Of a DNA stretch of 64,000 bases, positions 32,958-48,603 are shown piece by piece. The notes under the pieces are model-generated. The model was not told the origin of the DNA. It worked only from the letters and a program-made list of their open reading frames with translations, and searched no databases. The stretch covers positions 130,949 to 194,948 of the forward strand of contig NZ_RDBK01000025.1 of assembly GCF_008042275.1 (NCBI RefSeq), in the 5' to 3' direction. Source of the DNA: Streptomyces sp. OR43. GTDB taxonomy: Bacteria > Actinomycetota > Actinomycetes > Streptomycetales > Streptomycetaceae. The translations under genes were made by a program, and so were the position numbers. Position 1 is the first letter of the stretch. Each line of letters begins with the position of its first letter.

Positions 32958-35900
32958 TCAGGACGGCGGTTCCCCCGCGGGAGGCAGCACCAGCTCCGCG
33001 AGGTTCAGGAAGGCCTCCGTGGTGGCCGGCCGCAGACGGCCCAGGTTCCAGGTGGACGACTGGAGCGCGGAGTCGAACGGGACGGGAACCACATGGGCCG
33101 CGTCGATCCGCAGACGGTCGGCCAGGTCGGCGGGAAGCCGCCGCCCTCTGCGGCTGTCGACCTCGGACACCACCACGATCGCCCGGTCCGCCAGGTGGGC
33201 ACGCCCCGTCTCCCTCATGCCCGCGAGCGCCTGCACCGCCGCGTTCAGGGACACCTCGGTGGTGCTGGAACAGACGATCAGGGCGTCGGCGTTGTCGAGG
33301 AGCACGTCCGCCGGCTGGTTCAGGTGCAGCGGGGCCCAGTCGCTCAGCACGAACGAGTAGTACGGCGCCGTCCGGGCCAGCACCTGCACATAGTCCTGCG
33401 CGTGGCGGGGATTCGGGCTGATGTGACCCCGGTGATGAGCGAGCACCTCGAGGCCCGAGGGAAGCCGGGTCGTGCAGGCGCGGACCTCCTCGTACGAGGC
33501 GGAGCGCGGCAGCTCCGCCACGTTGCGCAGGACCGCCCGGCTGCGGTTCACGAGGAACGGGTCGAGGCCCCCCACGGACAGGGCTGCGTCAAGGGCGAGC
33601 ACGGGCTCGCCCCGCACCGCCGCCAGCAGGCTGCCGAGGACCATCGTCGTCGTGGCCCGGCCGCTGTAGTGGTAGGGGCCCACCAGGGCCAGCCGTCGGC
33701 CGTGCGACATCGGGACCCGTAGCCGCTCCAGCCGGCCCTCCGCCGCCCGGCGGGCGGACCCGAACCGGGCGAGGCGCGGCCCCGGCCCGCCGGACGGGGA
33801 CGCCTCGTCGCGCGGGGGCAGGTGGAGCGGAGCGGGCGCCGGACGGCGGGCGGCGGCCGGCGGGGGCAGCGTCCCGGCGTCCTCCCGCTGGGGGCGCGTC
33901 CGGGCGATGTACGTGCCGAGGACCTCCGCGACCTCGCTCGCGCTGGGGCGTCGGGCCGGGGAGGCGTCGAGGCAGCGGAGCACGAGGCGGCGCAGCTGCT
34001 CCCACGTGTCGCCCTGCCACCGGTGCATCCCCTCCGGCATGTTGGGCATCTCCCAGCCGGCCTTGCTGCTGATGAGCTGGAGGAGCCCGCCGAGGGAACG
34101 CACGTTGTCCTCCCGCGTCGGCAGGGGGCCCGGCTCCAGGTACTCCCCGTCCACGGCGCAGTCCGAGAGGTTGGCCAGCATCACCGTGCGGCGCAGCACA
34201 TAGACCCCGTCGGCACCGAAGTCCGCCGGCACCAGCCCGTTGATGTGGCACAGGGCCAGCGCGTTCGCCAGGTGGAAGGAGATGAGGAGCCCGCGCAGCG
34301 TGTCGAACGGGGCCACGGACTCCGCGAGCGCCTGGCTGAAGATCTCGTCGAGCCGCAGGGGCTGGGCGTCCCGGGCGGACGGCTCCGCGATGGTGGTCAT
34401 GGCCAGCCAGGGCGTGGAGCCCAGGGTCCCGGTGGCCAGCAGGGTGGGCGCGTACTGCCCCTGGAGCCGGGCCAGGGCCTCCGCCTCCACCTCGATGAGC
34501 CGGCCGGTCTCCGGCGGCAGATCGGGGCGCGGGACACGCACCGCCGCTTCGTTGTGCTGCGCGTCGAAACCCTGGTACACCACCGTGCGGCGCCCCCGGC
34601 GACGGCCGTGCAGCACGAACGCGCCGATCCGCTCGGGATCCTCGGGCAGCAGCGAACCCCAGCTGTCGGCATCGGGTACCTCCCGCTCGGGAGCCGGCCC
34701 GGGACCGGGCGACCGCTCGCCGAACGACACCCCGAACCGGGTGAGCAGCCGCCGCTCCACACTGGTGAACGGCTGGTGCGAGCCGGGGAGCCGGGCTGAG
34801 CCGTCGGGGTGGGACAGCCAGGCCGGGAAGTCGGGGGAGTGGCCGGCCAGTTCATCGAGGCGGCGGCCGATCCGACGGCTCGTCCGCAGGAGCTCGGCCG
34901 GCGGAATCGCGTCGAGCAGGACGGCCTTGGACTCCTCGGAGAAGTCGAAGACCCGGTGCTTCGCCGGCAGCGGACCCGGCACCGGAGCCGGGTGGGGCCG
35001 CAGGAGACCGCCGAGGAAGACCTCGGCGAGATGAGAGGTGCCGGCCCGCCACGGCACCGCGGTCTGCACCAGCCGCATCACCGGAACCGACAGCGGGGAG
35101 ACCGCCGCGAGATGGGCCGCGAGACGGTACGCCTCCGGAGTGGCCGCGTCCCGGAAGTGCTGGGTACTGCCCGCGTCCCGGGCCGGTGCCACCGCCTCGT
35201 ACGGTCCCGGGCGGACCAGCAGCGGCAGCTCGATGGTCGTGCCGGGCGAGGCGAGCAGCCGGGCCCAGTCACCCAGCGACGCGGGATCCGGCGCCAGGAC
35301 CGGTACCGGTATGCCCGCGAAGCGGGCGATGCCCGGCGGCAGCACCGGATCGACGATCCGCCAGGAGGAGTTGGCACCCCCGATCCGCCGGGTGGTGGCC
35401 TGCCAGAGTTCGGCGGAGATCCCGGACGCCTCCCACATCTGCGAAGGCAGGGTGTGCAGGACCGCGACCGGGCCGCGGGCGGCCCGGTCCGCCAGCAGGT
35501 CGTGCATCGCGCCGGACCGCCACGCCGCGCCCATTCCGTCGCTGACCACCAGCAGCAGCGTCCGCCCCGAGGGGTCGTTGACCGTGCTGAGCGGCAGTCC
35601 GGGGCCGTCGGACCGGAACGGCCGCGCGTGCAGGCCCGGCCGTGCGCCCGTGGTGTCCAGCCCCAGGACGCGGGTGGTGGAAAAGGCGCCCAGGCGCTCC
35701 AGCAGGGTGCGCAGTTCGGCCCCGAGCCGGTGCCACAGCAGCATGGACATGCCGTCGTCGACGAGCAGGACCAGATTCAGCCAGCGCTCCCGCACGGGGC
35801 GCTGCACCACGTCGACCAGTCCGGTCTGCGCGAACTCGGCGGCTGTGAGCTCCTCGTCGATCTCCGTGCGATGACGGCTGTCCCGGCGGCGACGCAACGG

Positions 35901-36305
35901 CCGCAGGGAGCGCCCCAGTTCGAGCTCGTCGGAGAGCGCCTTCTCCTCGGGGACCCGTACCGGCATGGCCTTGCGGGAGCCGCGGCCGGAGGGTGCGGGG
36001 AGCGGCTCCGGCACCGGAGGCGGTTGCCGGGCCGCCGCGTACAGGGACGGGGCGGTCAGGTCCGGCAGATCCGCGTCGTCGGGTTCCGGGCCGGGCCGCT
36101 TGAGGGATACCCGGTCCGGTCCTGGGCCGGGTCCGACGGCGGGCGGACGTGTCTCGGGCCGCTCCCGGTGAAGGGGCGCGCCGGGGCCGGCGGGCAGGCT
36201 GCGGGCCAGCCACAGCACGTCCAGGAGCTGATCCGCGTCCAGGTCGTGGCCGCAGGCCGACAGCACCCGCAGCGCCTCGGCCAGCCGTGCCCCGCCGCCG
36301 GCCAT
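32958..36305 (-). CDS. SAV_2336-like protein: vWA, pseudokinase and degenerate SIMIBI/MinD-like domains
   Basis: A 1115-aa multidomain protein, last in a four-gene operon. After a Pro-rich start, residues about 176-345 are vWA-like ('LNLVLLVDDGMSMLLWHRLG', 'TLLLVVSDGMGAAWRSG'), as in SAV_2336-related proteins. Residues about 560-800 resemble a protein kinase, with the C-lobe ending 'RCLDASPARRPSASEVAEVL', but the catalytic HRD is missing ('CHINGLVPADFGADGVYVL'), so it is a likely pseudokinase. Residues about 868-1110 look like a MinD/ParA fold whose P-loop is replaced by 'LVGPYHYSGRATTTMVLG', lacking the usual lysine pair. It starts one base after the MoxR stop. The role is likely scaffold or effector recruiter in a vWA-MoxR conflict system. 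Confidence 0.75.
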   Translation of the reverse strand: MAGGGARLAEALRVLSACGHDLDADQLLDVLWLARSLPAGPGAPLHRERPETRPPAVGPGPGPDRVSLKRPGPEPDDADLPDLTAPSLYAAARQPPPVPEPLPAPSGRGSRKAMPVRVPEEKALSDELELGRSLRPLRRRRDSRHRTEIDEELTAAEFAQTGLVDVVQRPVRERWLNLVLLVDDGMSMLLWHRLGAELRTLLERLGAFSTTRVLGLDTTGARPGLHARPFRSDGPGLPLSTVNDPSGRTLLLVVSDGMGAAWRSGAMHDLLADRAARGPVAVLHTLPSQMWEASGISAELWQATTRRIGGANSSWRIVDPVLPPGIARFAGIPVPVLAPDPASLGDWARLLASPGTTIELPLLVRPGPYEAVAPARDAGSTQHFRDAATPEAYRLAAHLAAVSPLSVPVMRLVQTAVPWRAGTSHLAEVFLGGLLRPHPAPVPGPLPAKHRVFDFSEESKAVLLDAIPPAELLRTSRRIGRRLDELAGHSPDFPAWLSHPDGSARLPGSHQPFTSVERRLLTRFGVSFGERSPGPGPAPEREVPDADSWGSLLPEDPERIGAFVLHGRRRGRRTVVYQGFDAQHNEAAVRVPRPDLPPETGRLIEVEAEALARLQGQYAPTLLATGTLGSTPWLAMTTIAEPSARDAQPLRLDEIFSQALAESVAPFDTLRGLLISFHLANALALCHINGLVPADFGADGVYVLRRTVMLANLSDCAVDGEYLEPGPLPTREDNVRSLGGLLQLISSKAGWEMPNMPEGMHRWQGDTWEQLRRLVLRCLDASPARRPSASEVAEVLGTYIARTRPQREDAGTLPPPAAARRPAPAPLHLPPRDEASPSGGPGPRLARFGSARRAAEGRLERLRVPMSHGRRLALVGPYHYSGRATTTMVLGSLLAAVRGEPVLALDAALSVGGLDPFLVNRSRAVLRNVAELPRSASYEEVRACTTRLPSGLEVLAHHRGHISPNPRHAQDYVQVLARTAPYYSFVLSDWAPLHLNQPADVLLDNADALIVCSSTTEVSLNAAVQALAGMRETGRAHLADRAIVVVSEVDSRRGRRLPADLADRLRIDAAHVVPVPFDSALQSSTWNLGRLRPATTEAFLNLAELVLPPAGEPPS

Positions 36306-36306
36306 G

Positions 36307-37257
36307 TCACATCGCCCCGGTCAGCTGGTGGAGTACGGCGTCCAGCAGGCCCTCCGCGTCCAGGTCGACCCCGCCGGTGCGCAGGAACACGGCATTGAGC
36401 AGCTGGTCGGTGGCCAGCTCTCCGGGGGCCCGGCGGCGCAGGAACGTCTCGATGAGGTCGTCGGCCGCCCCGAGGGCCGCATCCCCGAGGTGGGCGGCGA
36501 CGATGGCCCGCAGCCGCTCCTCGTCGGGCACGGGCAGGTCGAGCCGTACGCAGCGGCGCAGGAACGCGGGCGGGAAGTCGCGCTCACCGTTGCTGGTGAT
36601 GACGACGACCGGGAACTCCGCGCACTGGACGACACCTTGGTGCACCCGGACCGTCCCCCGGTGGTCGAGGGTCTGCACCTCCACATCGGCCATGTCCTCG
36701 GGGAGCCGGGTCAGCTCCGGAATGTCGTAGACGCCCTCCTCGAAGACCGTCAGCAGATCGTTGGGCAGATCGACGTCACCCTTGTCCATCTCGTCGATGA
36801 GCAGCGCCCGGGGAGTCGCGGACGGCACCAGGGCGGTGCCGAGCGGGCCCAGCCGTACGAACGTGCCGATGGACGGCTCGCGTTCGCCGCGGTCCCGGCT
36901 CAGAGTCGTCTCGCGCAGCCGGCCGATCGCGTCGTACTGGTAGAGGGCGTCCTTCACCGTGGACCGGCTGTTGACCGGCCAGCGCAGCAGCTCGCCCAGC
37001 CGGAGCTCATGGGCGACCGCGTGCGCGAGCGAGGACTTCCCGGTGCCGGCCGGCCCGGTCACCAGGAGCGGCCGGCGCAGGTGCAGGGCCGCGTTCACGA
37101 TGTTCGCGTGCTGTTCCTCGATCACGTAGGGCATGCCGGGATGGACTGCCCGGCCCGGAGTGAACCGGCGCCAGGGCGGGGCCGGAGGCAGGGACACGGC
37201 CCGGGGTTCCCCGTCGCCGCGGAAGAGGCGCCAGTCGGCCTCTGGAGCGGATGTCAT
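36307..37257 (-). CDS. MoxR-type AAA+ ATPase
   Basis: A 316-aa MoxR/RavA-like AAA+ ATPase. Walker A is 'LLVTGPAGTGKSSLAHAVAHE', Walker B 'ALLIDEMDKGDVDLPNDLL', sensor 1 'VVVITSNGERDFPPAFLRRC' with the arginine finger at its end. The MoxR insert contains 'FEEGVYDIPELTRLPED'. MoxR ATPases act with vWA proteins to remodel or activate partners. The ATG at 37257 overlaps the upstream protease gene's stop (ATGA), and its own stop is one base before the SAV_2336-like start. It is therefore the core of the operon. The long upstream frame is a shadow of the protease gene. Confidence 0.9.
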   Translation of the reverse strand: MTSAPEADWRLFRGDGEPRAVSLPPAPPWRRFTPGRAVHPGMPYVIEEQHANIVNAALHLRRPLLVTGPAGTGKSSLAHAVAHELRLGELLRWPVNSRSTVKDALYQYDAIGRLRETTLSRDRGEREPSIGTFVRLGPLGTALVPSATPRALLIDEMDKGDVDLPNDLLTVFEEGVYDIPELTRLPEDMADVEVQTLDHRGTVRVHQGVVQCAEFPVVVITSNGERDFPPAFLRRCVRLDLPVPDEERLRAIVAAHLGDAALGAADDLIETFLRRRAPGELATDQLLNAVFLRTGGVDLDAEGLLDAVLHQLTGAM

Positions 37258-39419
37258 GCGCTCTCCTGTGGTTCGGTCAGGTGCAGCCGGGGCACGGTGC
37301 GGTCGGCGTCCGCCCAGGCGAGGACCGGACGGCCGGGAAACTCGGGCGGGCTCGCCTGGGCGTTCGCCCGGTAGTCGCGTACGCCGTCGGGCAACTCCCG
37401 GGTGGCGACGGCCGCCATGTGCTGCGCGAGGTGCGAGGCCCCGTCCCGGCCGCGGTCCCACACCACTACGGGAATGCCCAGAGCGAGACACGTCTGCACG
37501 ATGCCGTCCCGCGGTCCGGGCGGTACGTCCACACAGACGCGCACCGTGTCGAGTTGGTTGACGAGTTTGAAGTAGAGGGCATCGGGGTCCATCGACTCCG
37601 AGACGACCAGGGTCTTCCCCGAATCCAGCCGGCTCCACCGTCGGCGCCAGTGGGAAATGAACCTCCCGTGCCGGCGCAGCAGTTCGGGGCAGTGTACGAC
37701 CAGGGGGAACTCCACACCGAGCACACCCGGCACGATCTCGCCGGGATCGTGCGCCGCCCACTCGTCGACCGGGAGGTTGAGGCTCGCGCGGTCGACGAGC
37801 ACCTCGACCAGGGGCGGCCGCTCGTCGTCGGCCGGCGGCGTCAGGGAGTCGAGGACGCGCAGCACTTCGCGCGCCCCGTCCGTCGCCGAATAGGTCATGA
37901 GGCTGTCCGTGGAGACCTGGCGGGGCCCCGCTCCCTCGTCGCACCAGATCCGCAGCCGGTGGCGGCCCCGCTCGGCACTCGTCACCTGGACCAGGACCCG
38001 CATGCGCGCGGAGCGGTCACGAACCGAGCGGCCCCAGGCCTGGGCGTCCGACCGGCGCTCGCCCAGGGCCGGCCGGGCTATCCCGAGGCGCTGGGCGATC
38101 CCGTCGGCCCACATGCGCAGTTCCGCCCGCTTCGCCGGGGGACAGAGCACGCCGACGTACTCCAGGACGCGCAGCAGCGCCGGGACCCTGCGCTCCCCGC
38201 TCGTGGAGTGACCGTCCCCGGGCAGTGCCTCGAGCCGGTTCAAAAGCGCGTCCAGCGACTCCCCGCCGGGGAAGGCCGGCACATGGGGCACCGCGGCCCG
38301 TGCGGCCTCGGGAATCCGCGCCAGTACGTCGCGGTCCGTGGCCCGCAGGTGCCTGAGCAGTGCCGCGTACTCCTGCGGTGTCAGCAGCCGCGGGACGTCG
38401 CTGAGGGAACCCGCGGCCAGTACGCGGTCGGCGCGAGCCGGGTCGCTGGAGCGCCGCAGGATTCCCGAGAAGGCGGCGAGGGCCCGCGGGTGCGTGAGCA
38501 CGAACAGGGCGAACTCCTCGGGCGAGGGCGGGGTCACGTCGCTTCCCCAGCCGACACCGCAGGCCTGGGCCAGCCGCTTGGCACAGTCCGAGCGCTCGCT
38601 CGGCGAGTACAGCATGTCCCCGATGGCCTCGGTCAGCAGCAGGAGCGCCGGATCCTCGGGTTCCGGAGCCTGCGGAGGCAGGACCCCGTGCAGGCCCACG
38701 GCGTCCAGTTCGCTCCTGACGCGCTGCCAGGGGATCGCCCAGCTGCGCCGCACGAGGTGCTGCGGGCTGTGCGGAAGGGGCAGCCCGGTGGCGCCGTCCC
38801 GGGGCGGCATGAAATGCGCCACGACCAGTCCGACGACCGCCTGTTCACGCCGGCACCACAGCGGACCCCCGCTGTATCCCGGGCCGACCGCCATGCCGGT
38901 CGCCTCGCCGTCCAGATAGCCCATCGAGGGGTGGAGCGAGGCGACGGTGAGCCGGGCCAGCGTCGCGTCCTCGCCGCTGCCGTGCCAGGCGCTCAGTTTT
39001 TGCTCGGTCGACATGTCGGCACGGTCGGGAGCGGCGGGCAGACCACCGGCCGGCCCGTCGACGCGTAACACGGCCAGGTCGCCGAGCCACTCGTTGTCCC
39101 CCTCGAGCACCGCGCCGCCGTCCCTGGCCCGCGGGGCGACCCAGTGGAGCAGGCGCGCGGAGTACGTCTCCGAGCCGCCGTACCGGTCCGCGTACGCACC
39201 GCGCACCACGACGGAGATCTCCTCCAGCCTCGGGGGCCGGGCTTCGAACATCGGTCGGCCGAGTGCGTCATTGACGACGTGTGCGCAGGTCAGGACCGTG
39301 TCGGGGCCAAGGATGAAGCCCGCGCCCGCCAGACCCCCGTCATCGGCGCGCCGCACCGTCACCACGAGGCGGGAGGGATCGTCGTGGTGCCAGCCGCCCG
39401 TGGCTCCGAACCACCCCAT
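37254..39419 (-). CDS. trypsin-like peptidase fused to a vWA-MoxR-associated (VMAP-C-like) domain
   Basis: A 721-aa protein. Residues about 15-240 are a chymotrypsin-fold peptidase with the triad in 'LTCAHVV' (His47), 'LGDLAVLRV' (Asp114) and 'GYSGGPLW' (Ser183). The usual GDSGGP Asp is Tyr. No signal peptide is seen, so it acts in the cytoplasm. A helical middle (about 265-420) precedes a C-terminal domain (about 450-720, 'LRIWCDEGAGPRQVSTDSLM', 'VEVLVDRASLNLPVDEW', 'PVVVWDRGRDGASHLAQ') that I assign to the VMAP-C type of vWA-MoxR-associated proteins. Codon 118 is a rare TTA. An ATGA overlap couples it to the MoxR gene. Confidence 0.8.
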   Translation of the reverse strand: MGWFGATGGWHHDDPSRLVVTVRRADDGGLAGAGFILGPDTVLTCAHVVNDALGRPMFEARPPRLEEISVVVRGAYADRYGGSETYSARLLHWVAPRARDGGAVLEGDNEWLGDLAVLRVDGPAGGLPAAPDRADMSTEQKLSAWHGSGEDATLARLTVASLHPSMGYLDGEATGMAVGPGYSGGPLWCRREQAVVGLVVAHFMPPRDGATGLPLPHSPQHLVRRSWAIPWQRVRSELDAVGLHGVLPPQAPEPEDPALLLLTEAIGDMLYSPSERSDCAKRLAQACGVGWGSDVTPPSPEEFALFVLTHPRALAAFSGILRRSSDPARADRVLAAGSLSDVPRLLTPQEYAALLRHLRATDRDVLARIPEAARAAVPHVPAFPGGESLDALLNRLEALPGDGHSTSGERRVPALLRVLEYVGVLCPPAKRAELRMWADGIAQRLGIARPALGERRSDAQAWGRSVRDRSARMRVLVQVTSAERGRHRLRIWCDEGAGPRQVSTDSLMTYSATDGAREVLRVLDSLTPPADDERPPLVEVLVDRASLNLPVDEWAAHDPGEIVPGVLGVEFPLVVHCPELLRRHGRFISHWRRRWSRLDSGKTLVVSESMDPDALYFKLVNQLDTVRVCVDVPPGPRDGIVQTCLALGIPVVVWDRGRDGASHLAQHMAAVATRELPDGVRDYRANAQASPPEFPGRPVLAWADADRTVPRLHLTEPQESA

Positions 39420-39427
39420 GCCTTACT

Positions 39428-39847
39428 TCACTCGGAGGCCGGCGGTGCGCCGGCCCCCTGGGACGGCACCGGCCGCCAGCTGGCGGTGACCGTGAGGTGG
39501 GCCTGGCCGTTGCCGCCCACGATGCCCAGCTTGAGGTCCTGTCCGATCTGGACACCGAACGTCACGCTCAGCTCGGTGGGCGGCTCCGGCGTGGCGACCA
39601 CGGCGTCGTGGACCTCCTGGAGCAGCGGGCCGACGGGCTTCAGCGCGCCCCGCAGGGCCCCGACCGCGAAACTGGCGACGGACCGGCCCCCGGCAGCCAC
39701 GGGGACGGCCCGCCCCATGCCCTCGGGAAGGTCGCCGTCCCGCTGCTGAGCGGGCGCCGCGGGAGCGGCCCCGGGCGCGGGTGCGAGCAGGAAGCGGACG
39801 GGCGTGCCGTCGTCGAGTTCGATGTCAGGTGTAGTGGACACGACCAC
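39428..39847 (-). CDS. trypsin-co-occurring domain protein (CU044_2847/trypco1-like)
   Basis: A small protein, 139 aa from a GTG at 39847. A GTG at 39841 and a TTG at 39889 are alternatives, and none has a strong ribosome site. It begins 'PDIELDDGTPVRFLL' and ends 'LSVTFGVQIGQDLKLGI' plus 'HLTVTASWRPV', the beta-rich pattern of the CU044_2847/trypco1 domain that travels with cytosolic trypsin-like peptidases. A helix 'LKPVGPLLQEVHDAVVA' lies between. It is the first gene of the operon, eight bases before the peptidase gene. Its likely role is to dock onto or regulate the peptidase. Confidence 0.7.
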   Translation of the reverse strand: MVVSTTPDIELDDGTPVRFLLAPAPGAAPAAPAQQRDGDLPEGMGRAVPVAAGGRSVASFAVGALRGALKPVGPLLQEVHDAVVATPEPPTELSVTFGVQIGQDLKLGIVGGNGQAHLTVTASWRPVPSQGAGAPPASE

Positions 39848-40613: not shown

Positions 40614-41063
40614 GGGGAGCAGCCTAACGACCTCGTGCCCCGCCCTACGCGGCGAGGATCCGGCAATCGCGCTTATCCCGGGGGTGTGCGTGTTCTGCTT
40701 CGCCAAGGACAAGCAGACCGCGCGGACGGCCGGGGAGTTCTGTCCCGGGCCATCAAAGTCATGCGCGGTGCCGAGGCCCTTTCCGCGTACGCCCCCATCA
40801 ACAAGTCGGAAAGGTTCCGTGCGAGAAGGCAAAGCTCCTGCGGATGCCTGCGCCGAAGCCCCTCACCGCGCGAACGGGGCAAAACTTCCAATATTGACAG
40901 TGTGGGATGGACGAACGACGTGGAAGCAGAGGCGCCCCTCGTTTTGACGGTTCGATCTGTGTCGCAAAATCGCCCTCTGTGTTTCGTGAGGCCATTAAGA
41001 TCCGCACGCAGTCAATTGAGTTGCGCCGGTCAATCTGTGCCATGGACCATCGGGGACAAGATC
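40614..41063. other. 450-bp gene-free stretch with AT-rich segments
   Basis: I see no gene here. Compared with the surroundings it is relatively AT-rich from about 40880 to 41040, with runs such as CAATATTGACAG and GCCATTAAGATCC. It contains TTGACA and TTTTGACG boxes, but no matching -10 could be fixed. It lies between the orphan response regulator and the first TIR gene and is the likely left edge of transferred DNA. Confidence 0.5.
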
Positions 41064-43898
41064 TTGGAACGCGACGCCTTCATCTCCTACAGCCATACCA
41101 GAGATGTACCGCTGGCAGAAGCCCTCCAGAAAGGGCTGCAGGGCATCCTGCGAACACCGTGGCTGCACCGTGCGGGAGCGAAGGTCTTCCGGGACACAAC
41201 CAGCCTCGCCGCCGGCCACGACCTGGGCGGGTCGATCAAGGCGGCGCTGGCTTCGTCCCGCTACTTCATCTGCCTGGCTTCCCCCGAAGCCGCGGAGTCG
41301 CGGTGGGTCCGCGAGGAGATCGAGTACTGGCGCACTAACCACGGCATGGAGAACTTCCTCATCGCGGTCAGTGAGGGCACCATCGTCTGGGATCCCGTCG
41401 CGGGTGACTTCGACTGGAACCGGACCAATGCCCTGCCTCCGGTGCTGCGCGGCGCCTTCGTCACCGAACCGCTATGGGTGGACCTCCGGCCGTTCCGCGA
41501 CGCCGACGACCGCTCCATGGCACCAGGCAGCCCGTTCCGCGACAGGGTGGCCAGCCTCGCCGCACCCTTGCACGGCCTGGCGAAAGACGCCTTGGACAGT
41601 GCTGACCTGCGTATGCAGCGTCGCGCCGTCCGCGTCCTCCGAAACTTCGTGGCCGCCCTCACTGTGGTATCACTGCTGGCCGTCGGCGCCGGTGTCTACG
41701 CCTGGCAGAAGCGCGGAGAGGCACTCGCCCGTGCCCGTACCTCCGCCTCGCAGGCGCTGGCGGCCCGCGCACTCGACACGGTCGCCCGGGACCCGCGCAA
41801 GGCCGCGCAGTTCGCGCTGTACGCCCACGAGGTCCAGCCCACGGGCGAGTCGGCGCAGGCGATGGCTCAGGCCGTCGTGGCCAACGGAAGCGTGACCCGG
41901 CACCTCCAGGCCGGAAACGAGAAGGTAGCCAACTTCCACGGAGTGGCGCACGTCAACGCGACCAAGGTTGCCGTCAGCCCGGACGGGAGCGTGCTGGCGT
42001 ACTACTCGGACTTCGATACCGATGCGTCCGGCGAGAAAACACACATCCACCTTTACGACATCGGTGCCGGCAAAGCGCTCCCGAACTTGGAAGGAGGGAG
42101 CTGGCCGCAGGACGGCGGCTGGATGCAGTTCAGTGCGGACGGGAAGTCGCTGGCGGTGGAGGGGCCCTACAACCGGATCGACATCTGGGACGTGGATGCT
42201 CGCCGACGGGTCCGGACCATCGTGACCGGAAAGGGAGAGGACCTGGCCGGCGCCTTCAAGCACCTTTGGGCGTTCTCCTTCTCCCGCGACGGACAACTTG
42301 TCGCCGCCGCGTTCTACACGCCCGACGAGCCCGAATACCGGTTCCATGTGGCCGTCTGGAATGCGAGGACCGGACGCCTGCTGAGCGACGAGACCGGCGG
42401 CACCGTGAATGTGGCCCTCGGTTTCGACGGTTCGGACAGCCTTCTTGCCCTCGACTCCCGGGTCGGTGCGGTCCGTGACTTCCGGCGGGGCGGTGCCTCC
42501 TGGAGCGCCTGGCGGAAGATCCCTGGCTTCCCCGTCGGTGAGAGAAGGCAGGTCACGCTCTCCCCAGACGGATCGAGGGCGTACGTCGGTGAGAAGCGCC
42601 AACTCTGGGATCTGATCGCGGGCCGGAAACTGGCCAGCACCGCCGAGCAGGACATCGGGGCGATTGTGGTGCCTGGCGCACAGGGCGAAGACGCCTACGC
42701 CGCCGCGGGCCGTAGGGTGGGTGTGTACGACGCGGCTCTGCGCCGTACACGTGTCCTCGGCTCCTTCACCTGGCCGGTGTCGAGCGTCTCCGCCTCCTCG
42801 GACGGACAGTGGGTGGCCGCCGGCTCAGGGGACGGCGCCGTCTCCCTCTTCTCAGCCACCAACCTCCGGTTGGGCGTCCCGCTCCAGAACAAACCGCGCG
42901 TCAAGCCCGCCGAACTGGCCGCAGACGATCGCACGGCCTCCCGCACCACGGGATCCGGAACACAGGTGTGGTCCGTCACCGCCGACGGAGTCCGGGAGCT
43001 CGGGCGTCTGCCCCTGCGACTCGTGAGACGATCCCTGCGCCAGGACACCGTCATCGCCTCCCCGAACGGCACCCGTGCGGTGGTGGCCCAAGAGGGCGCG
43101 GTGTCGCTCTGGGATCTGCGCGACGGGAGCCGGACAGGTCGGACGGCGACACTCGACGGCGCGTTCGTGCCCGTGACCTTTCTGCCTGACGGCGACCACG
43201 TGGTCGGAACGACCGACGACGCGGTGCAGGTGGTCGACACCCGGGCGTGGCAGGTCGTCCAGTCCGTACCGTTCGCCCGAGAGGACGTCGATATGGCCAT
43301 CTCTACCAGTCTGGACCGTACGACCCTGGCCCTCGTTCACAACACCGAACTGACGGTATGGAAGTGGACCGTCGAGAAGAATTACCGCCAGGTACGCAAG
43401 GTCCCCATCGAACCCGTCTGGACCATGTACGGGCACCAGGTCGTGGTCAGTGCAAAGGGGGAGAGAGCCGCTGTGATCAACTTCGACGGTCTCATCTCCG
43501 TGCTCGACGTGGACACGGGAGAGTTCGTACCCGGCACGACCGCGTCGAGCGGCATGACGGATCTCGCTTTCAGCAGCGACACGTCCCTCCTCGTCCAGCC
43601 CACCGGTTCAGCTGCGGAGCGGGGCCTGCAGTTCTGGGACGCGGCCACCCTCGAGTCCCGAGGCTCCTGGACGCTTCCGAGTCAGGAGTCCGGTCAGGAC
43701 ACCACGGTCGCACGTCTGCTGGCCGGCGAGGACGGCACCGTGACCACGTTCGACACGGACGGCGGCTTGGTGCGTCGCACCATGGACGTGGCTGCCTGGC
43801 AGAGGACCCTCTGCGATCTGGCGTCCAGCGCGCTCCCGCAGGCGGAGTACGACCGGTACCTGAGTGGTCTGGACGTGGACGCCCCCTGCCCTCGATGA
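41064..43898 (+). CDS. TIR-domain protein with transmembrane helix and beta-propeller
   Basis: A 944-aa protein. Residues 1-145 are a TIR domain: 'ERDAFISYSHTRDVPLAEAL', 'AGAKVFRDTTSLAAGHDLGG', 'YFICLASPEAAESRWVREEIE'. The Trp81-x3-Glu85 pair fits the catalytic glutamate of TIR NADases. A single transmembrane helix occupies about 194-214 ('NFVAALTVVSLLAVGAGVYAW'). The remaining 700 residues are degenerate WD40-like blades ('VAVSPDGSVLAYYSD', 'LSPDGSRAYVGEKRQLWD'). I chose the TTG at 41064 because GGGGA lies upstream and the protein then starts right at the TIR domain. A GTG at 41037 is the alternative. The likely role is sensing outside or at the membrane with a cytoplasmic NAD-cleaving or scaffolding TIR. 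Confidence 0.85.
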   Translation: MERDAFISYSHTRDVPLAEALQKGLQGILRTPWLHRAGAKVFRDTTSLAAGHDLGGSIKAALASSRYFICLASPEAAESRWVREEIEYWRTNHGMENFLIAVSEGTIVWDPVAGDFDWNRTNALPPVLRGAFVTEPLWVDLRPFRDADDRSMAPGSPFRDRVASLAAPLHGLAKDALDSADLRMQRRAVRVLRNFVAALTVVSLLAVGAGVYAWQKRGEALARARTSASQALAARALDTVARDPRKAAQFALYAHEVQPTGESAQAMAQAVVANGSVTRHLQAGNEKVANFHGVAHVNATKVAVSPDGSVLAYYSDFDTDASGEKTHIHLYDIGAGKALPNLEGGSWPQDGGWMQFSADGKSLAVEGPYNRIDIWDVDARRRVRTIVTGKGEDLAGAFKHLWAFSFSRDGQLVAAAFYTPDEPEYRFHVAVWNARTGRLLSDETGGTVNVALGFDGSDSLLALDSRVGAVRDFRRGGASWSAWRKIPGFPVGERRQVTLSPDGSRAYVGEKRQLWDLIAGRKLASTAEQDIGAIVVPGAQGEDAYAAAGRRVGVYDAALRRTRVLGSFTWPVSSVSASSDGQWVAAGSGDGAVSLFSATNLRLGVPLQNKPRVKPAELAADDRTASRTTGSGTQVWSVTADGVRELGRLPLRLVRRSLRQDTVIASPNGTRAVVAQEGAVSLWDLRDGSRTGRTATLDGAFVPVTFLPDGDHVVGTTDDAVQVVDTRAWQVVQSVPFAREDVDMAISTSLDRTTLALVHNTELTVWKWTVEKNYRQVRKVPIEPVWTMYGHQVVVSAKGERAAVINFDGLISVLDVDTGEFVPGTTASSGMTDLAFSSDTSLLVQPTGSAAERGLQFWDAATLESRGSWTLPSQESGQDTTVARLLAGEDGTVTTFDTDGGLVRRTMDVAAWQRTLCDLASSALPQAEYDRYLSGLDVDAPCPR

Positions 43899-44037: not shown

Positions 44038-46821
44038 TCACTTCGGGCAGAGCGGGCGGGACGCGGGTCCCGTGGGCACACCCTCGTGCCACCGGTCGGC
44101 GGTGAACGCGCCGCCGGCCCACGCGCACAGTGTCCGAACCGGATCCACCGTCGCTTCGACGTTCCACAGCCGGGCCGTGCCGTCGTCGGCCCAGCTGATT
44201 AACGTCCTACCGCTGGGGGCGAAGCCCACACCGGTGACACCCGCACCATGTCCTTCCAGCGGATCGCCGATCTGGCGCCCGGTGGCGATGTCCCAGAGCC
44301 GGACCGTGTGGTCGTGGCCCCCGGTGGCCAGGGTGTTCCCGTCAGGGCTGAACATCACGGACAGGACGCCGCCGCGATGGCCCCGCAGCGGGGCTCCGAT
44401 CCGCTCGCGCGTGGTTGCGTCCCAGAGTCGAACGGTGTCGTCACGGCTCGCGGTGGCGAGCGTCGTGCCGTCCGGGCTCCAGGCCACCGCCGCTATCTGC
44501 GCGGTGTGATCAATCGGGGTCTCGCCGATTCGGCGGCGTGTGGCCATGTCCCAGAACGCCACGGTGTCGTCCTCCGTGACAGTGGCCAGGGTGCGGCCGT
44601 CCGATCTCACCGCGACGCTGACGGAAGAGGGTCCGAGTACCGTGCCTGTGGGAGGCTGCGCCGCCAGGTCCCATACGTGTACGGACTCCGGACCGCCGCT
44701 GACGAGGGTCTTGCCGTCCGGGCTGAACGTCAGCGCACCGGCCTCGCCCGTGTCGAGCAGTGGTTCGCCCACGGGCCGGCGGGCCGCGACATCCTGGAGC
44801 CGTAGCCCGTCGGACCCGATTGCGAGCACCGCGCCGTCGGGGCGGAACGCGAGGCTGGGGCTGAGCTCGTGGGCATCGCGGGCCACCGGGCCGGCGGCCC
44901 GGCGTCGTGTGACGAGGTTCCAGAGGCGCACGTCCTCCTTGGAGTCCACGACCGCCAAAGCCCGCCCGTCCGGGCTGAGCGCTGCCGCGCTCTGTGACCC
45001 CGTGTCGATCGGTGCTCCGGTCTGGTGCAGCGTACGGATGTCCCAGAGACGGACCGTGGTGTCCTCGCTCGAACTGGCCAGGACCGATCCGTCCGGACTG
45101 AAGGCGACGGCACGGGCCGTAGTGCTGTGACCGATGAGCGGGCCGCCCACCAGGCCGCTCCGCCGGAGGTCCCAGAGCCGCACACCACCGTCCTTGTACG
45201 CGGCGGCGAGCATCGCGCTGTCGGGGCTGAAGGTGATCGAACTGATCCCCGGAGAATGGGAAGCGACCGGCTCGCCGATCGGGGTCCTGGCCTCGGCGTC
45301 CCACAGCTGGAGGCCGCCGTCGAAGTCGGCGACCGCGAAGACCTTGCCGTCGGGGCTGAAGGAGAGCGACGTGACGATGCCGCCGCGGCTCTGCAGTACT
45401 CCTCCGACCTGTCTACGGGAGGCGATGTCCCATAGCTGTACGCCGTCCTGGACCGCTCTGGATCCCACACTTCCCTCGGAGTTCATGGCGAGGAACTGTC
45501 CCGGACCGCTGAGCGGCCGGCCGATCTGGCGGTGGGTCGCCAGGTCCCATTCCCGTATGGTCCCCGAGTCGTCCTCGTCCACGGTGACGAGTGTCCTGCC
45601 GTAACGGCTGAAGGCGACTGAAAGAACCGCCCCGGCGGCGGTGACGAAGGGGGCGCCGATCTGGGTGCGGCTAGCGACGTCCCAGAGCCGGACGGTTCCG
45701 TCGAAGCCTGAGCTGGCCAGCGTCCTGCCGTCCGGCGTGAAGGCGATCGACGTGATGCTCTGGTGATGCCCAATGAGGGGTTGCCCCGCCGCCTGCTGCG
45801 TCCTCGTCCTCCAGAGTCTCACCACCCCGTCACCACCGCCGGAGGCGACAGTCCTGCCATCGGGACTGAAAGCCACCGCCTCCACGGGCACCGAATGGGT
45901 GAGCACCCCGGACGCCGGATTGGCCAATGCGTCGAGAACCGCGAAACGGGTCTCCGGAGAAGGACTGATCCGCCACGCGGCCAATGCCTTCAACCGGGCG
46001 GCGAACGGGTCCCGTCCCGCGAGCAAAGAGCTCTGGGTGATCAGTTGTTGGACGACAGCCTGGTCACGCTGTCGGGCGGCCTCGGCACGTGATCGGATTG
46101 CCACCACCGACAGGGTGCTCGCGACCAGCAGCAGAGCGCCCAACGCGGCGGCGACCGCCCTGGCCGTCCGCAGGTTGCGCCGGGTGTCGCGGAGCCCTTC
46201 TGAGCGGAGTTCGTCCTCGGAGAGGCCACGCACGACCGATGCGATACCGAAGGCGACACCTTCGACGTCGGGAGAGAACCCCATGTCACCGTCGGGGAGG
46301 AGGGCCACGGACTTCCAGACGGGTTGCTGCTCGAACTTTCCCCCCAGCCGGGCCGGCAGCGCCGTCGACCGGTGGGGGTCCCAGTCGCCCCGCCGCTCGT
46401 CCCACACCAACTGCCCTGCTGTGACGACGAGCAGGACGGTGTGCACCGACTTGTGCTCCAACCACCACGCGATTTCCCGGTCGACCCACACCGAGGACCT
46501 CGCCTCCGGCGAGGCCAGGACCACGAGCCAGTCGGAACGGTCGAGACCGGCCTCGATCTTGCCCCACAGCTCCGGCCCGATCGACACACCCGTCCGGTCG
46601 AGAAAGACCCGGATACGTGGCGGCTTGTACCAAGGCCGGGACTGCTTCTCGATCACCTGTCGCAGACGCGGCAGCCAGCTCCGGTCGCGCCCGCCGCTGT
46701 AGGACAGGAAGACGCCGTACCCCAGCTCGGTCCTGACCGGTCCGCGGTCGGCCACGGCGGACCGAAGCCAGGCCGATGCCGTACCGAGAGCCCGCCCGCA
46801 CGGCAACCAGCGCGCCGGCAT
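44038..46821 (-). CDS. TIR-domain protein with transmembrane helix and 14-blade WD40 region
   Basis: A 927-aa protein convergent with the first TIR gene. The TIR domain covers about 34-170 ('GYGVFLSYSGGRDRSWLPRL', 'RIRVFLDRTGVSIGPELWG', 'LASPEARSSVWVDREIAWWLE', Trp112 and Glu116 aligned with the NADase position). A helix at about 221-242 spans the membrane. From about 300 onward fourteen WD40-type repeats ('FSPDGRTVASGGGDGVVRLW' and variants) suggest two seven-bladed propellers. The ATG overlaps the lipoprotein stop (ATGA). Leu874 is encoded by TTA at 44200-44202, making translation bldA-dependent in Streptomyces. The biological role is probably defence or signalling. Confidence 0.87.
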   Translation of the reverse strand: MPARWLPCGRALGTASAWLRSAVADRGPVRTELGYGVFLSYSGGRDRSWLPRLRQVIEKQSRPWYKPPRIRVFLDRTGVSIGPELWGKIEAGLDRSDWLVVLASPEARSSVWVDREIAWWLEHKSVHTVLLVVTAGQLVWDERRGDWDPHRSTALPARLGGKFEQQPVWKSVALLPDGDMGFSPDVEGVAFGIASVVRGLSEDELRSEGLRDTRRNLRTARAVAAALGALLLVASTLSVVAIRSRAEAARQRDQAVVQQLITQSSLLAGRDPFAARLKALAAWRISPSPETRFAVLDALANPASGVLTHSVPVEAVAFSPDGRTVASGGGDGVVRLWRTRTQQAAGQPLIGHHQSITSIAFTPDGRTLASSGFDGTVRLWDVASRTQIGAPFVTAAGAVLSVAFSRYGRTLVTVDEDDSGTIREWDLATHRQIGRPLSGPGQFLAMNSEGSVGSRAVQDGVQLWDIASRRQVGGVLQSRGGIVTSLSFSPDGKVFAVADFDGGLQLWDAEARTPIGEPVASHSPGISSITFSPDSAMLAAAYKDGGVRLWDLRRSGLVGGPLIGHSTTARAVAFSPDGSVLASSSEDTTVRLWDIRTLHQTGAPIDTGSQSAAALSPDGRALAVVDSKEDVRLWNLVTRRRAAGPVARDAHELSPSLAFRPDGAVLAIGSDGLRLQDVAARRPVGEPLLDTGEAGALTFSPDGKTLVSGGPESVHVWDLAAQPPTGTVLGPSSVSVAVRSDGRTLATVTEDDTVAFWDMATRRRIGETPIDHTAQIAAVAWSPDGTTLATASRDDTVRLWDATTRERIGAPLRGHRGGVLSVMFSPDGNTLATGGHDHTVRLWDIATGRQIGDPLEGHGAGVTGVGFAPSGRTLISWADDGTARLWNVEATVDPVRTLCAWAGGAFTADRWHEGVPTGPASRPLCPK

Positions 46822-47534
46822 CAGCCGGTCGGCAGGTAGTCGTGACCGTTCCAGCGCAAGGTCACCTTGGCGGTGGCGCCTTCGGCACAGGAGGGATCAC
46901 ACCCCTTGATGGATTGGACGATCGCGTATGCGCCGTCCTTTCCGGGGCCGACCGGCCTCGCGTGGTAGAAGGCGAATCTGCCGCCGCTGTAGTGGTCTTC
47001 CGCGCTCCTCCAGCTGATGTCCGCGAATCCGTCCGCAGTGGGCACGAGTACCAGAACACCGTCGTAGCGACCGGGGTTGTAGACGACGAAGACGTTCCTG
47101 GTGGAGTCGGTCGCCGGAGAGGCGAATCGCAACGGACCCTCCATGCTCCAGTTGGCGTCCACCTCCACGGGTGCCAGCGCGCGCCCCCTTCCGGTGACGG
47201 CCGCCACGCATCCCTGCGGCCGAACGCCGGATACGGGCCGCTGGACCAGAAATACGCGGACCGGCCCGAGGTCCGGATGCCGGATGTCCCGGTGGTCGAG
47301 CGGCCTTCCGGCACACCCGGCGGCGAGGGGCGGGCTCGTTGGGAACGAGGCGTTCGAGGGAGCCGACGCGGTTGACCTGCTCTCAGCCGAGCCACTGCGG
47401 GCCGGCCCGCCCGTATCCGCGCATCCCGCGACGGCCACTGCCGCCAGGGCGGCCGACATCAGCAGGGAGGCCCGAGCCCCGGCAGGGCCACGCCGGAAGA
47501 ACTGTCGGCGTAAAGGCGATGAACTGGAAGACAT
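46821..47534 (-). CDS. lipoprotein of unknown function, coupled to TIR-WD40 gene
   Basis: A 237-aa predicted lipoprotein. An arginine-rich start (residue 8 is encoded by a rare TTA at 47511-47513) precedes 'ASLLMSAALAAVAVAGC', with the lipobox cysteine near residue 38, then a Ser/Ala-rich linker and a domain with several cysteines (about 74, 109, 213, 217). 'VFVVYNPGRYDGVLVLVPTAD' and 'KVTLRWNGHDYLPTG' are the clearest segments. I recognise no family. It is the first gene of an operon with the second TIR gene (ATGA overlap), so it may be the outer-surface partner of that receptor. GAGGGAAC precedes the ATG. Confidence 0.65.
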   Translation of the reverse strand: MSSSSSPLRRQFFRRGPAGARASLLMSAALAAVAVAGCADTGGPARSGSAESRSTASAPSNASFPTSPPLAAGCAGRPLDHRDIRHPDLGPVRVFLVQRPVSGVRPQGCVAAVTGRGRALAPVEVDANWSMEGPLRFASPATDSTRNVFVVYNPGRYDGVLVLVPTADGFADISWRSAEDHYSGGRFAFYHARPVGPGKDGAYAIVQSIKGCDPSCAEGATAKVTLRWNGHDYLPTG

Positions 47535-47823: not shown

Positions 47824-48603
47824 ATGAGCGCAGTGCAGCCCGGAGGGGGACCGAACCAGAGGTTGAGGGTCCTGAAGGGTACGACGCTCCGGCTGTTGGG
47901 CGCGGCGTTCATCGGGGCGCTCACCGGGCTTGCCGTCTTCAGCCTGACCCAGGTCACCAGCCGCAGCCTGTTCGTCATCACCGGTGGCGTGGCGGGGGCG
48001 GCGGCCGTGCTGGCGGTCCAGTGGTACCAGCGCACCGCCCGTCTTACCGAGGTAAAGGTGACGGTCCCCCAGCTGAGCGAGCTGACCTTCACCGTCAACA
48101 ACGATTCCCGGCAGGTGGCCTGGCAACTGTTCGTGGAGACGGTGACGAGGGTCTCCACCCAGCCGCTCGCCAGCGACCAGGGGGTGATCCGGGAGGCGCT
48201 AGGCTCGATGTATGGGCTCTTCGCCACGACGCGCGAGACGCTCAAGGCCAGTCGCCCTTCTGCCGCTGTGCCGAGCGGGCAGACGGTGGAGTACCTGGCC
48301 ATCACGATGCTCAACCAGGCGCTTAGGCCCTACCTTTCCCACTGGCACCCTCGTCTGCAGGAGTTCGAGAGAGAACACCCGGACGGCCAGGAGTCGGCGT
48401 GGTCGCAGAACGCGGCGTGCCGGGCCGCGATGCGGGAGGTCCAACGCGACCTCTACGACTACGCGATCGGCTTCGCCCGCCTCGCGGGTGTACGTGAGGC
48501 CGAGGCGCTGATCGGCGTTGTTCCCGCCCCACGCTCACCCGAGGGCGGGCCGGTCAGCGGCCCCAGGCCCCCGACGGGCGGCGCCACACGTACCCGGGGC
48601 TGA
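47824..48603 (+). CDS. two-TM membrane protein of unknown function
   Basis: A 259-aa protein starting at the ATG after GGGAG. Two transmembrane helices lie near residues 21-40 ('LRLLGAAFIGALTGLAVFSL') and 49-67 ('LFVITGGVAGAAAVLAVQW'). The remaining 190 residues form a soluble, mainly helical domain ('AWQLFVETVTRVSTQPLAS', 'YLAITMLNQALRPYLSHWH', 'AAMREVQRDLYDYAIGFARL'). I do not recognise the family. It is divergent from the lipoprotein-TIR operon across 289 bp and converges on the GT39 gene, overlapping it by 145 bp. The neighbourhood suggests part of the conflict block. Confidence 0.6.
   Translation: MSAVQPGGGPNQRLRVLKGTTLRLLGAAFIGALTGLAVFSLTQVTSRSLFVITGGVAGAAAVLAVQWYQRTARLTEVKVTVPQLSELTFTVNNDSRQVAWQLFVETVTRVSTQPLASDQGVIREALGSMYGLFATTRETLKASRPSAAVPSGQTVEYLAITMLNQALRPYLSHWHPRLQEFEREHPDGQESAWSQNAACRAAMREVQRDLYDYAIGFARLAGVREAEALIGVVPAPRSPEGGPVSGPRPPTGGATRTRG

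Follow-up and report, generated by a model that had tools for sequence, protein, structure and literature searches.

A lipoprotein gene overlapping and co-inherited with a TIR-transmembrane-WD40 gene in Streptomyces: a candidate two-part outside-sensing receptor

In Streptomyces sp. OR43, a window of 64,000 nucleotides (contig NZ_RDBK01000025.1, positions 130,949 to 194,948 of the forward strand) was found to carry a lipoprotein gene, FAM2, directly upstream of TIR1, a gene that joins a TIR domain, one transmembrane (TM) segment and WD40-like blades in a single polypeptide (TIR-TM-WD40; Table 1). Both genes lie on the reverse strand, and the last base of the FAM2 stop codon (TGA, 46823-46821) is also the A of the predicted ATG start of TIR1, giving the junction TGATG with one base in common; a GTG at 46755 would serve TIR1 as an alternative start. 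The stop-start overlap reported in the original prediction was thus confirmed. The same prediction had called the two genes translationally fused, which holds to the extent that they overlap and are possibly translationally coupled, but they encode two separate proteins.

The N-terminus of FAM2 is arginine-rich and is followed by a hydrophobic stretch and then by the lipobox AVAGC, which contains Cys38. All ten orthologues, counting the window's own, have a lipobox, and FAM2 itself has the signal peptide, lipobox and cysteine of a bacterial lipoprotein. Nine Streptomyces orthologues were 59-86% identical, and the ratio of nonsynonymous to synonymous substitution (dN/dS, Nei-Gojobori) was 0.22-0.61 over 45 pairs. 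A chance open reading frame (ORF) was ruled out by the orthologues, the dN/dS and the lipobox, and by these comparisons FAM2 is a real gene. The pattern RR-x-[FL]-[FLVMI] occurred in only 3 of the 10 orthologues, and therefore twin-arginine export is not claimed. No Pfam family matched FAM2 at E up to 1, no assignment to LppP/LprE (Lipoprotein_21, PF14041) being obtained at that threshold; neither NCBIfam nor PADLOC gave a match at E up to 0.01, and no match was found among phage records. The description of the lipoprotein as unrecognised stands for these three collections, but the domain also ends lipoproteins of Gordonia and Rhodococcus (see below).

When the stop/start junction was compared at ten loci, an NTG codon overlapping the FAM2 stop was present at eight (7 ATG, 1 GTG). 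In genome G307, ACG stands at the overlap position instead of NTG, and in S. mutomycini the frame at this position differs from the TIR frame. The overlap is common, indeed usual, and is neither universal nor obligatory.

A scan of 392 Streptomyces genomes matched FAM2 in 15 at E up to 1e-3, of which eight (own included) were true relatives with E at most 8e-75. The other seven matches (E 4.6e-5 to 6.2e-4, 46 to 111 residues) were set aside as chance hits, L016 alone having been inspected. The TIR-TM stretch was found in 41 genes of 25 of the same genomes; in both scans 6-7 candidates per genome were fully scored, and distant extra copies may escape. Eight of the TIR genes, 72-100% identical, stood apart from the remaining ones (40% or less), and these eight sat in exactly the eight FAM2 genomes, with none split. 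FAM2 lay directly upstream, in the same order and strand, in 8/8, with 86 bases from its stop to where the TIR match begins. An initial scan of 60 relatives plus own genome had given no further FAM2 match because of sampling; the genus-wide scan gave seven more. A separate scan with one genome per species returned five FAM2 loci, two of them judged to be already among the 392-genome set, and added two species with the FAM2-TIR pair, S. mutomycini and Streptomyces sp. JHA26. The co-occurrence survey proposed with the original prediction thus revealed the pair in all eight FAM2 genomes of the 392 and in two more species, contrary to the refuting case named there, a pair confined to this one genome.

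When the 41 TIR-TM stretches were placed in a tree, the FAM2-paired genes, eight in all, formed one clade (clade A) with support of 100/100. Counted by proximity, 11 TIR genes lay within 2.3 kb of FAM2; the surplus of three comes from other clades and is due to genes standing in tandem with one of clade A. The earlier suggestion that the lipoprotein may define a TIR subclass is supported by this single clade.

Around the ten Streptomyces loci, the genes called in roughly 3 to 7 kb were then compared, with the TIR and lipoprotein families excluded. Among the 45 locus pairs, one (G141/G269) had a common set of ordinary genes, one an ABC ATPase and ten FAM1, a family of two-TM proteins treated below. 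The flanks mostly differ between loci, and therefore FAM2 and TIR1 stay together while their surroundings change. These comparisons bear on the explanation that both genes simply travel in the same mobile defence cassette and work independently of each other, which would agree with the variation among loci, with the further conflict genes nearby and with the FAM2 domain occurring apart from TIR1 elsewhere. However, order, strand and closeness are constant while the other neighbours mostly change, and an unrelated second lipoprotein goes with another clade, as described below; we consider such passive co-inheritance unlikely.

Beyond Streptomyces, the FAM2 domain was detected by the one-genome-per-species scan in Gordonia malaquae, where no TIR1 relative was found within the 12.4 kb examined. 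On Gordonia and Rhodococcus plasmids the domain is the C-terminal end of larger proteins, lipoproteins among them. Within the class, matches to the FAM2 profile were found in 3 of 296 genomes and matches to the TIR-TM stretch in five of 256 (own included in both). The domain also ends larger proteins in two genomes of another family; one of these carries a VWA_2 lipoprotein with the FAM2 domain at its end (L119 4315-5949), and the 11 kb examined there contained no called TIR gene.

A second clade of TIR genes (clade B, nine genes, support 99/100) was found to have a lipoprotein, FAM3, downstream in 9/9. The FAM3 profile was derived from neighbours of the same TIR genes, so this count is not independent and a back-search is the better check. 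Against the 392 genomes, the back-search gave 15 matches in 13 genomes. Nine of these, in 7 genomes, had 40% identity or more: eight adjoin a TIR gene, and the ninth lies at a contig start, where placement was impossible. The six weaker matches (32-37%) lie elsewhere, and at the five of these loci that were examined no TIR-WD40 gene was present among the gene calls. No homology between FAM2 and FAM3 was detected, hhalign giving a probability of 0.8%, then 0.2 and 0.3%, with no profile similarity. FAM3 resembles Lipoprotein_21 (LppP/LprE) below the cut-off, and copies at L062 8692-9417 and 12308-13054 and at L059 6484-7167 have conserved YGDxxGDxRxEA and CC motifs.

According to the gene caller, an adjacent same-strand lipoprotein accompanies at least 6/8 TIR genes of clade A, at least 6/9 of clade B and at least 1/24 elsewhere; the background is at least 11 lipobox-bearing genes among 242 unrelated genes of these loci. 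These counts are lower bounds because the caller trims starts, and it missed the lipobox in the window's own FAM2 and in G307. The pairing of FAM2 and FAM3 with TIR genes was based on stop positions, placement by hidden Markov model (HMM) and read sequences rather than on the caller. For the 24 TIR genes that belong to neither clade, the single case is in G109, where a same-strand lipoprotein overlaps the TIR end. At L080 1704-2345 (reverse strand), a lipoprotein overlaps the end of a TIR-WD40 gene and matches Lipoprotein_21 at E 8e-4, below the cut-off. SLATT-family genes were found no more than 840 bases from seven TIR genes, of which six belong to a single group of seven with weak support (81/78); Pfam, run on two of the seven SLATT genes, identified SLATT_3+SLATT_1 proteins at L064 9313-10104 and L070 5659-6561. 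No SLATT-family gene clustered beside the FAM2-paired clade.

TIR1 itself scored above the cut-offs of two TIR profiles, TIR_2 (40 bits versus 28) and ThsB_TIR (26.2 versus 21.2). A WxxxE-type motif, present in 37 of the 41 TIR-TM stretches, reads SPEARSSVWVDRE in TIR1 with Glu116 as its glutamate, which a weak phmmer match (E 0.48) lines up with a glutamate of 7uxr. The WxxxE-type glutamate is the catalytic glutamate of the TIR enzymes that cleave nicotinamide adenine dinucleotide (NAD+), and from these sequence features the TIR domain of TIR1 probably cleaves NAD+. The blades numbered 14 by eye, 12 by pattern and 11 as Pfam WD40 stretches; with 14 blades at a spacing of about 42 residues, they probably form two seven-bladed propellers.

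When lysine and arginine were counted over 15 residues on each side of the TM segment, the TIR side had more in 37 of 41 proteins, and two cysteines near the C-terminus were shared by 37 of the 38 proteins of full length, three short ones being excluded. Together with the repeated lipoprotein pairing, these features favour a TIR domain inside and a propeller outside the membrane, the arrangement under which the original prediction had seen the lipoprotein as a possible ligand-binding partner. Were the propeller cytoplasmic instead, FAM2 would merely report membrane or wall state indirectly. Many WD40 proteins are indeed cytoplasmic, and the charge bias of TIR1 is just 5 to 4; yet the family-wide bias, the terminal cysteine pair and the recurrence of lipoprotein partners all speak against this arrangement, which we consider quite improbable.

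For FAM2, an AlphaFold2 model built from 13 sequences reached a mean predicted local distance difference test (pLDDT) score of 72.9, the five models spanning 44.4 to 72.9; ten-residue means were 79-95 for residues 61-170 and 45-81 after. The model had 12 strands, which we grouped as three sets of four. Structure comparison returned mostly propeller parts, barely over the stated background: the best VIA-align Z was 9.1 at a root-mean-square deviation of 5.6, where 7-8 is stated to be typical of a best match, with no row clear of the rest, and the best Foldseek E was 0.046. The FAM2 profile gave no match to solved structures at E up to 5, and nothing in the fold searches was clear of background.

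These searches also bear on the explanation that FAM2 is a dedicated inhibitor, antitoxin-like on the outer face, keeping the receptor off. Since the FAM2 gene comes first and mostly overlaps TIR1, overlapping translation would have the inhibitor ready ahead of a hazardous TIR protein; the strict pairing would also suit an inhibitor, as would G142, in which an intact FAM2 stands beside a TIR1 in three frames. On the other hand, FAM3 lies downstream throughout clade B, unlike a guard-first order, and no inhibitor fold stood out. We regard a dedicated outer-face restraint as rather doubtful and rank it next after the favoured explanation, to which we give about an even chance: that TIR1 is a receptor for outside signals and that FAM2 is its accessory subunit, anchored by lipid and serving as co-sensor or as restraint.

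As an accessory subunit, FAM2 would make one membrane unit with TIR1, whose TIR domain would lie in the cytoplasm and whose two WD40 propellers would lie outside. FAM2 would be held by Cys38 on the outer face of the same membrane, beside the propellers, where it could act as a co-sensor presenting a ligand or as a restraint released by one. A signal from outside (phage, rival or wall damage) may engage the pair, upon which the TIR domains would cluster and cleave NAD+, leading to death or to a second-messenger response. At some loci the responder may be a two-TM protein encoded nearby, FAM1 or, in another group, SLATT, which would permeabilise the membrane.

Several points weigh against the accessory-subunit explanation. 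The overlap is absent at two of the ten loci, and the eight paired genomes are related, hence not eight independent events. In G142 the TIR1 orthologue (L002 6711-9420) is spread over three frames beside an intact FAM2, through either decay or sequencing error. Adjacent same-strand lipoproteins were not called for 23 of the 24 TIR genes outside both clades (the caller misses some true ones), and therefore this receptor type can apparently do without one. Because Gordonia and Rhodococcus records contain the FAM2 domain with no TIR1 relative found in the 12-15 kb examined, the domain is not TIR-specific. Neither FAM2 nor FAM3 was found in the DNA examined from the four other TIR-matching genomes of the class, which are non-Streptomyces. 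As for orientation, the lysine and arginine counts tie in two of the 41 proteins (TIR2, described below, among them) and are reversed in two, one of which is a truncated gene without TM; in TIR1 the TIR side exceeds the other by a single residue; and the arguments are indirect and were made without a control set. The outward propeller, the contact between FAM2 and TIR1, the cleavage of NAD+ and the outside trigger are all inferred.

Table 1. Features of the FAM2-TIR1 locus and neighbouring genes in the window
Feature	Coordinates	Strand	Basis
Lipoprotein gene FAM2	46821..47534	-	237-aa ORF; orthologues; dN/dS below 1
Lipidation cysteine codon, Cys38 of lipobox AVAGC	47421..47423	-	lipobox in 10/10 orthologues, own included
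Predicted all-beta extracytoplasmic domain of FAM2, residues about 61-237, with Cys74, Cys109, Cys212, Cys216	46821..47354	-	AlphaFold2
TIR1, TIR-TM-WD40 gene, 927 aa	44038..46821	-	ORF and Pfam
TIR_2 domain match, residues 37-126	46444..46713	-	Pfam TIR_2, E 6.3e-10
WxxxE-type glutamate Glu116 of TIR1	46474-46476	-	position in TIR_2 region
Single TM segment, residues 222-242	46096..46158	-	hydropathy 2.39 over 21 residues
14 WD40-like blades, about 42-residue spacing	44143..45879	-	11 Pfam WD40 stretches and blade motifs
C-terminal cysteine pair, conserved in TIR-TM-WD40 family	44047..44130	-	37/38 full-length proteins
FAM1, two-TM protein, divergent from FAM2-TIR1 pair	47824..48603	+	placed by HMM
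TIR2, second TIR-TM-WD40 gene, convergent with TIR1	41037..43898	+	Pfam, tree

Around the pair, FAM1 was found clustered in at least 15 of 36 TIR-TM-WD40 loci, a minimum since the window's own copy escaped the caller; more were placed by HMM, and several loci of the FAM2-paired clade have it. In some loci FAM1 stands just upstream of the TIR-TM-WD40 gene on the same strand, and in three of the called copies the TM part is missing, perhaps from trimmed starts. No Pfam match of FAM1 reached the cut-off, its AlphaFold model was of low confidence (mean pLDDT 68.2), and its fold searches gave nothing clear of background. TIR2 belongs to a clade other than that of TIR1, and the caller found no lipoprotein neighbour for it. 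Further along, at 36307-39718 on the reverse strand, lie a VMAP-C/trypsin protein (VMAP-M0 below the cut-off), a Trypco1 protein and an AAA_5 ATPase, a combination that is a described type of conflict system; beside it, a 1115-aa ORF (32958-36305) had no Pfam match at E 0.01. With this VMAP locus and TIR2, the setting of TIR1 looks like a conflict island.

VMAP systems are treated by Kaur et al. (2020; PMC7159879), as are effectors of the TIR and SLATT kinds and conflict systems that have TM segments and extracellular domains; the parts consulted contain no mention of a lipoprotein-TIR pair. Nor was such a pairing described in the titles and abstract openings among the matches listed, a coverage outside which most subscription journals and all bioRxiv preprints fall. 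Among bacterial TIR conflict effectors (e.g. Thoeris ThsB, or the TIR domains of VMAP, iSTAND and AP-ATPase systems covered in those parts of PMC7159879), TIR1 is alike in its TIR_2 and ThsB_TIR matches, its WxxxE-type glutamate and the VMAP-type locus nearby. It differs from them in combining TIR, one TM segment and a double propeller in one polypeptide, with a lipoprotein partner besides. Regarding Thoeris itself, the ThsB_TIR match of TIR1 is a Pfam domain; TIR1 had no match to PADLOC ThsB models at E 0.01, TIR2 had weak matches to them, and ThsA was absent from the window proteins run against PADLOC, to which that scan was confined. SLATT two-TM effectors, TIR-linked in the same parts of PMC7159879, have a parallel in the TIR-TM-WD40 group near SLATT_3+SLATT_1 proteins, whereas the FAM2-paired clade is without clustered SLATT and has at several loci FAM1, which falls below Pfam cut-offs. 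LppP/LprE are likewise lipoproteins, and FAM3 matches their family weakly; FAM2, unlike them, has neither a Pfam match nor profile similarity to FAM3. The FAM2-TIR1 unit is most likely a variant of TIR conflict systems.

An analogy of function can be drawn with animal Toll-like receptors, of which TLR4 has a lipid-anchored helper, CD14: in both cases TIR would be inside, repeats outside and a lipid-anchored accessory beside them. TIR1 differs in having a WD40 propeller rather than leucine-rich repeats and in its N-terminal TIR domain, and no homology is claimed. Loosely by this analogy, the pairing suggests a two-part outside-sensing receptor. A bolder version, which we hold to be possible and put forward tentatively, is a Toll-type bacterial complex composed of an outward double WD40 propeller, one TM segment, an inward NAD+-cleaving TIR domain and an obligate lipid-anchored co-receptor; the clades would have recruited FAM2, FAM3 and the G109 lipoprotein independently, and the FAM2 domain, with its three predicted four-stranded sheets, may dock on or complete the propeller.

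With just two genes, the FAM2-TIR1 unit is small and testable, clade B is at hand for comparison, and the question posed is what FAM2 binds. Among bacterial TIR defence proteins, the best known react to intracellular signals. If the accessory-subunit explanation is true, a clade that retains a lipoprotein partner on the outer face would imply a further use of TIR domains in bacteria, that of reporting what happens at the cell surface.

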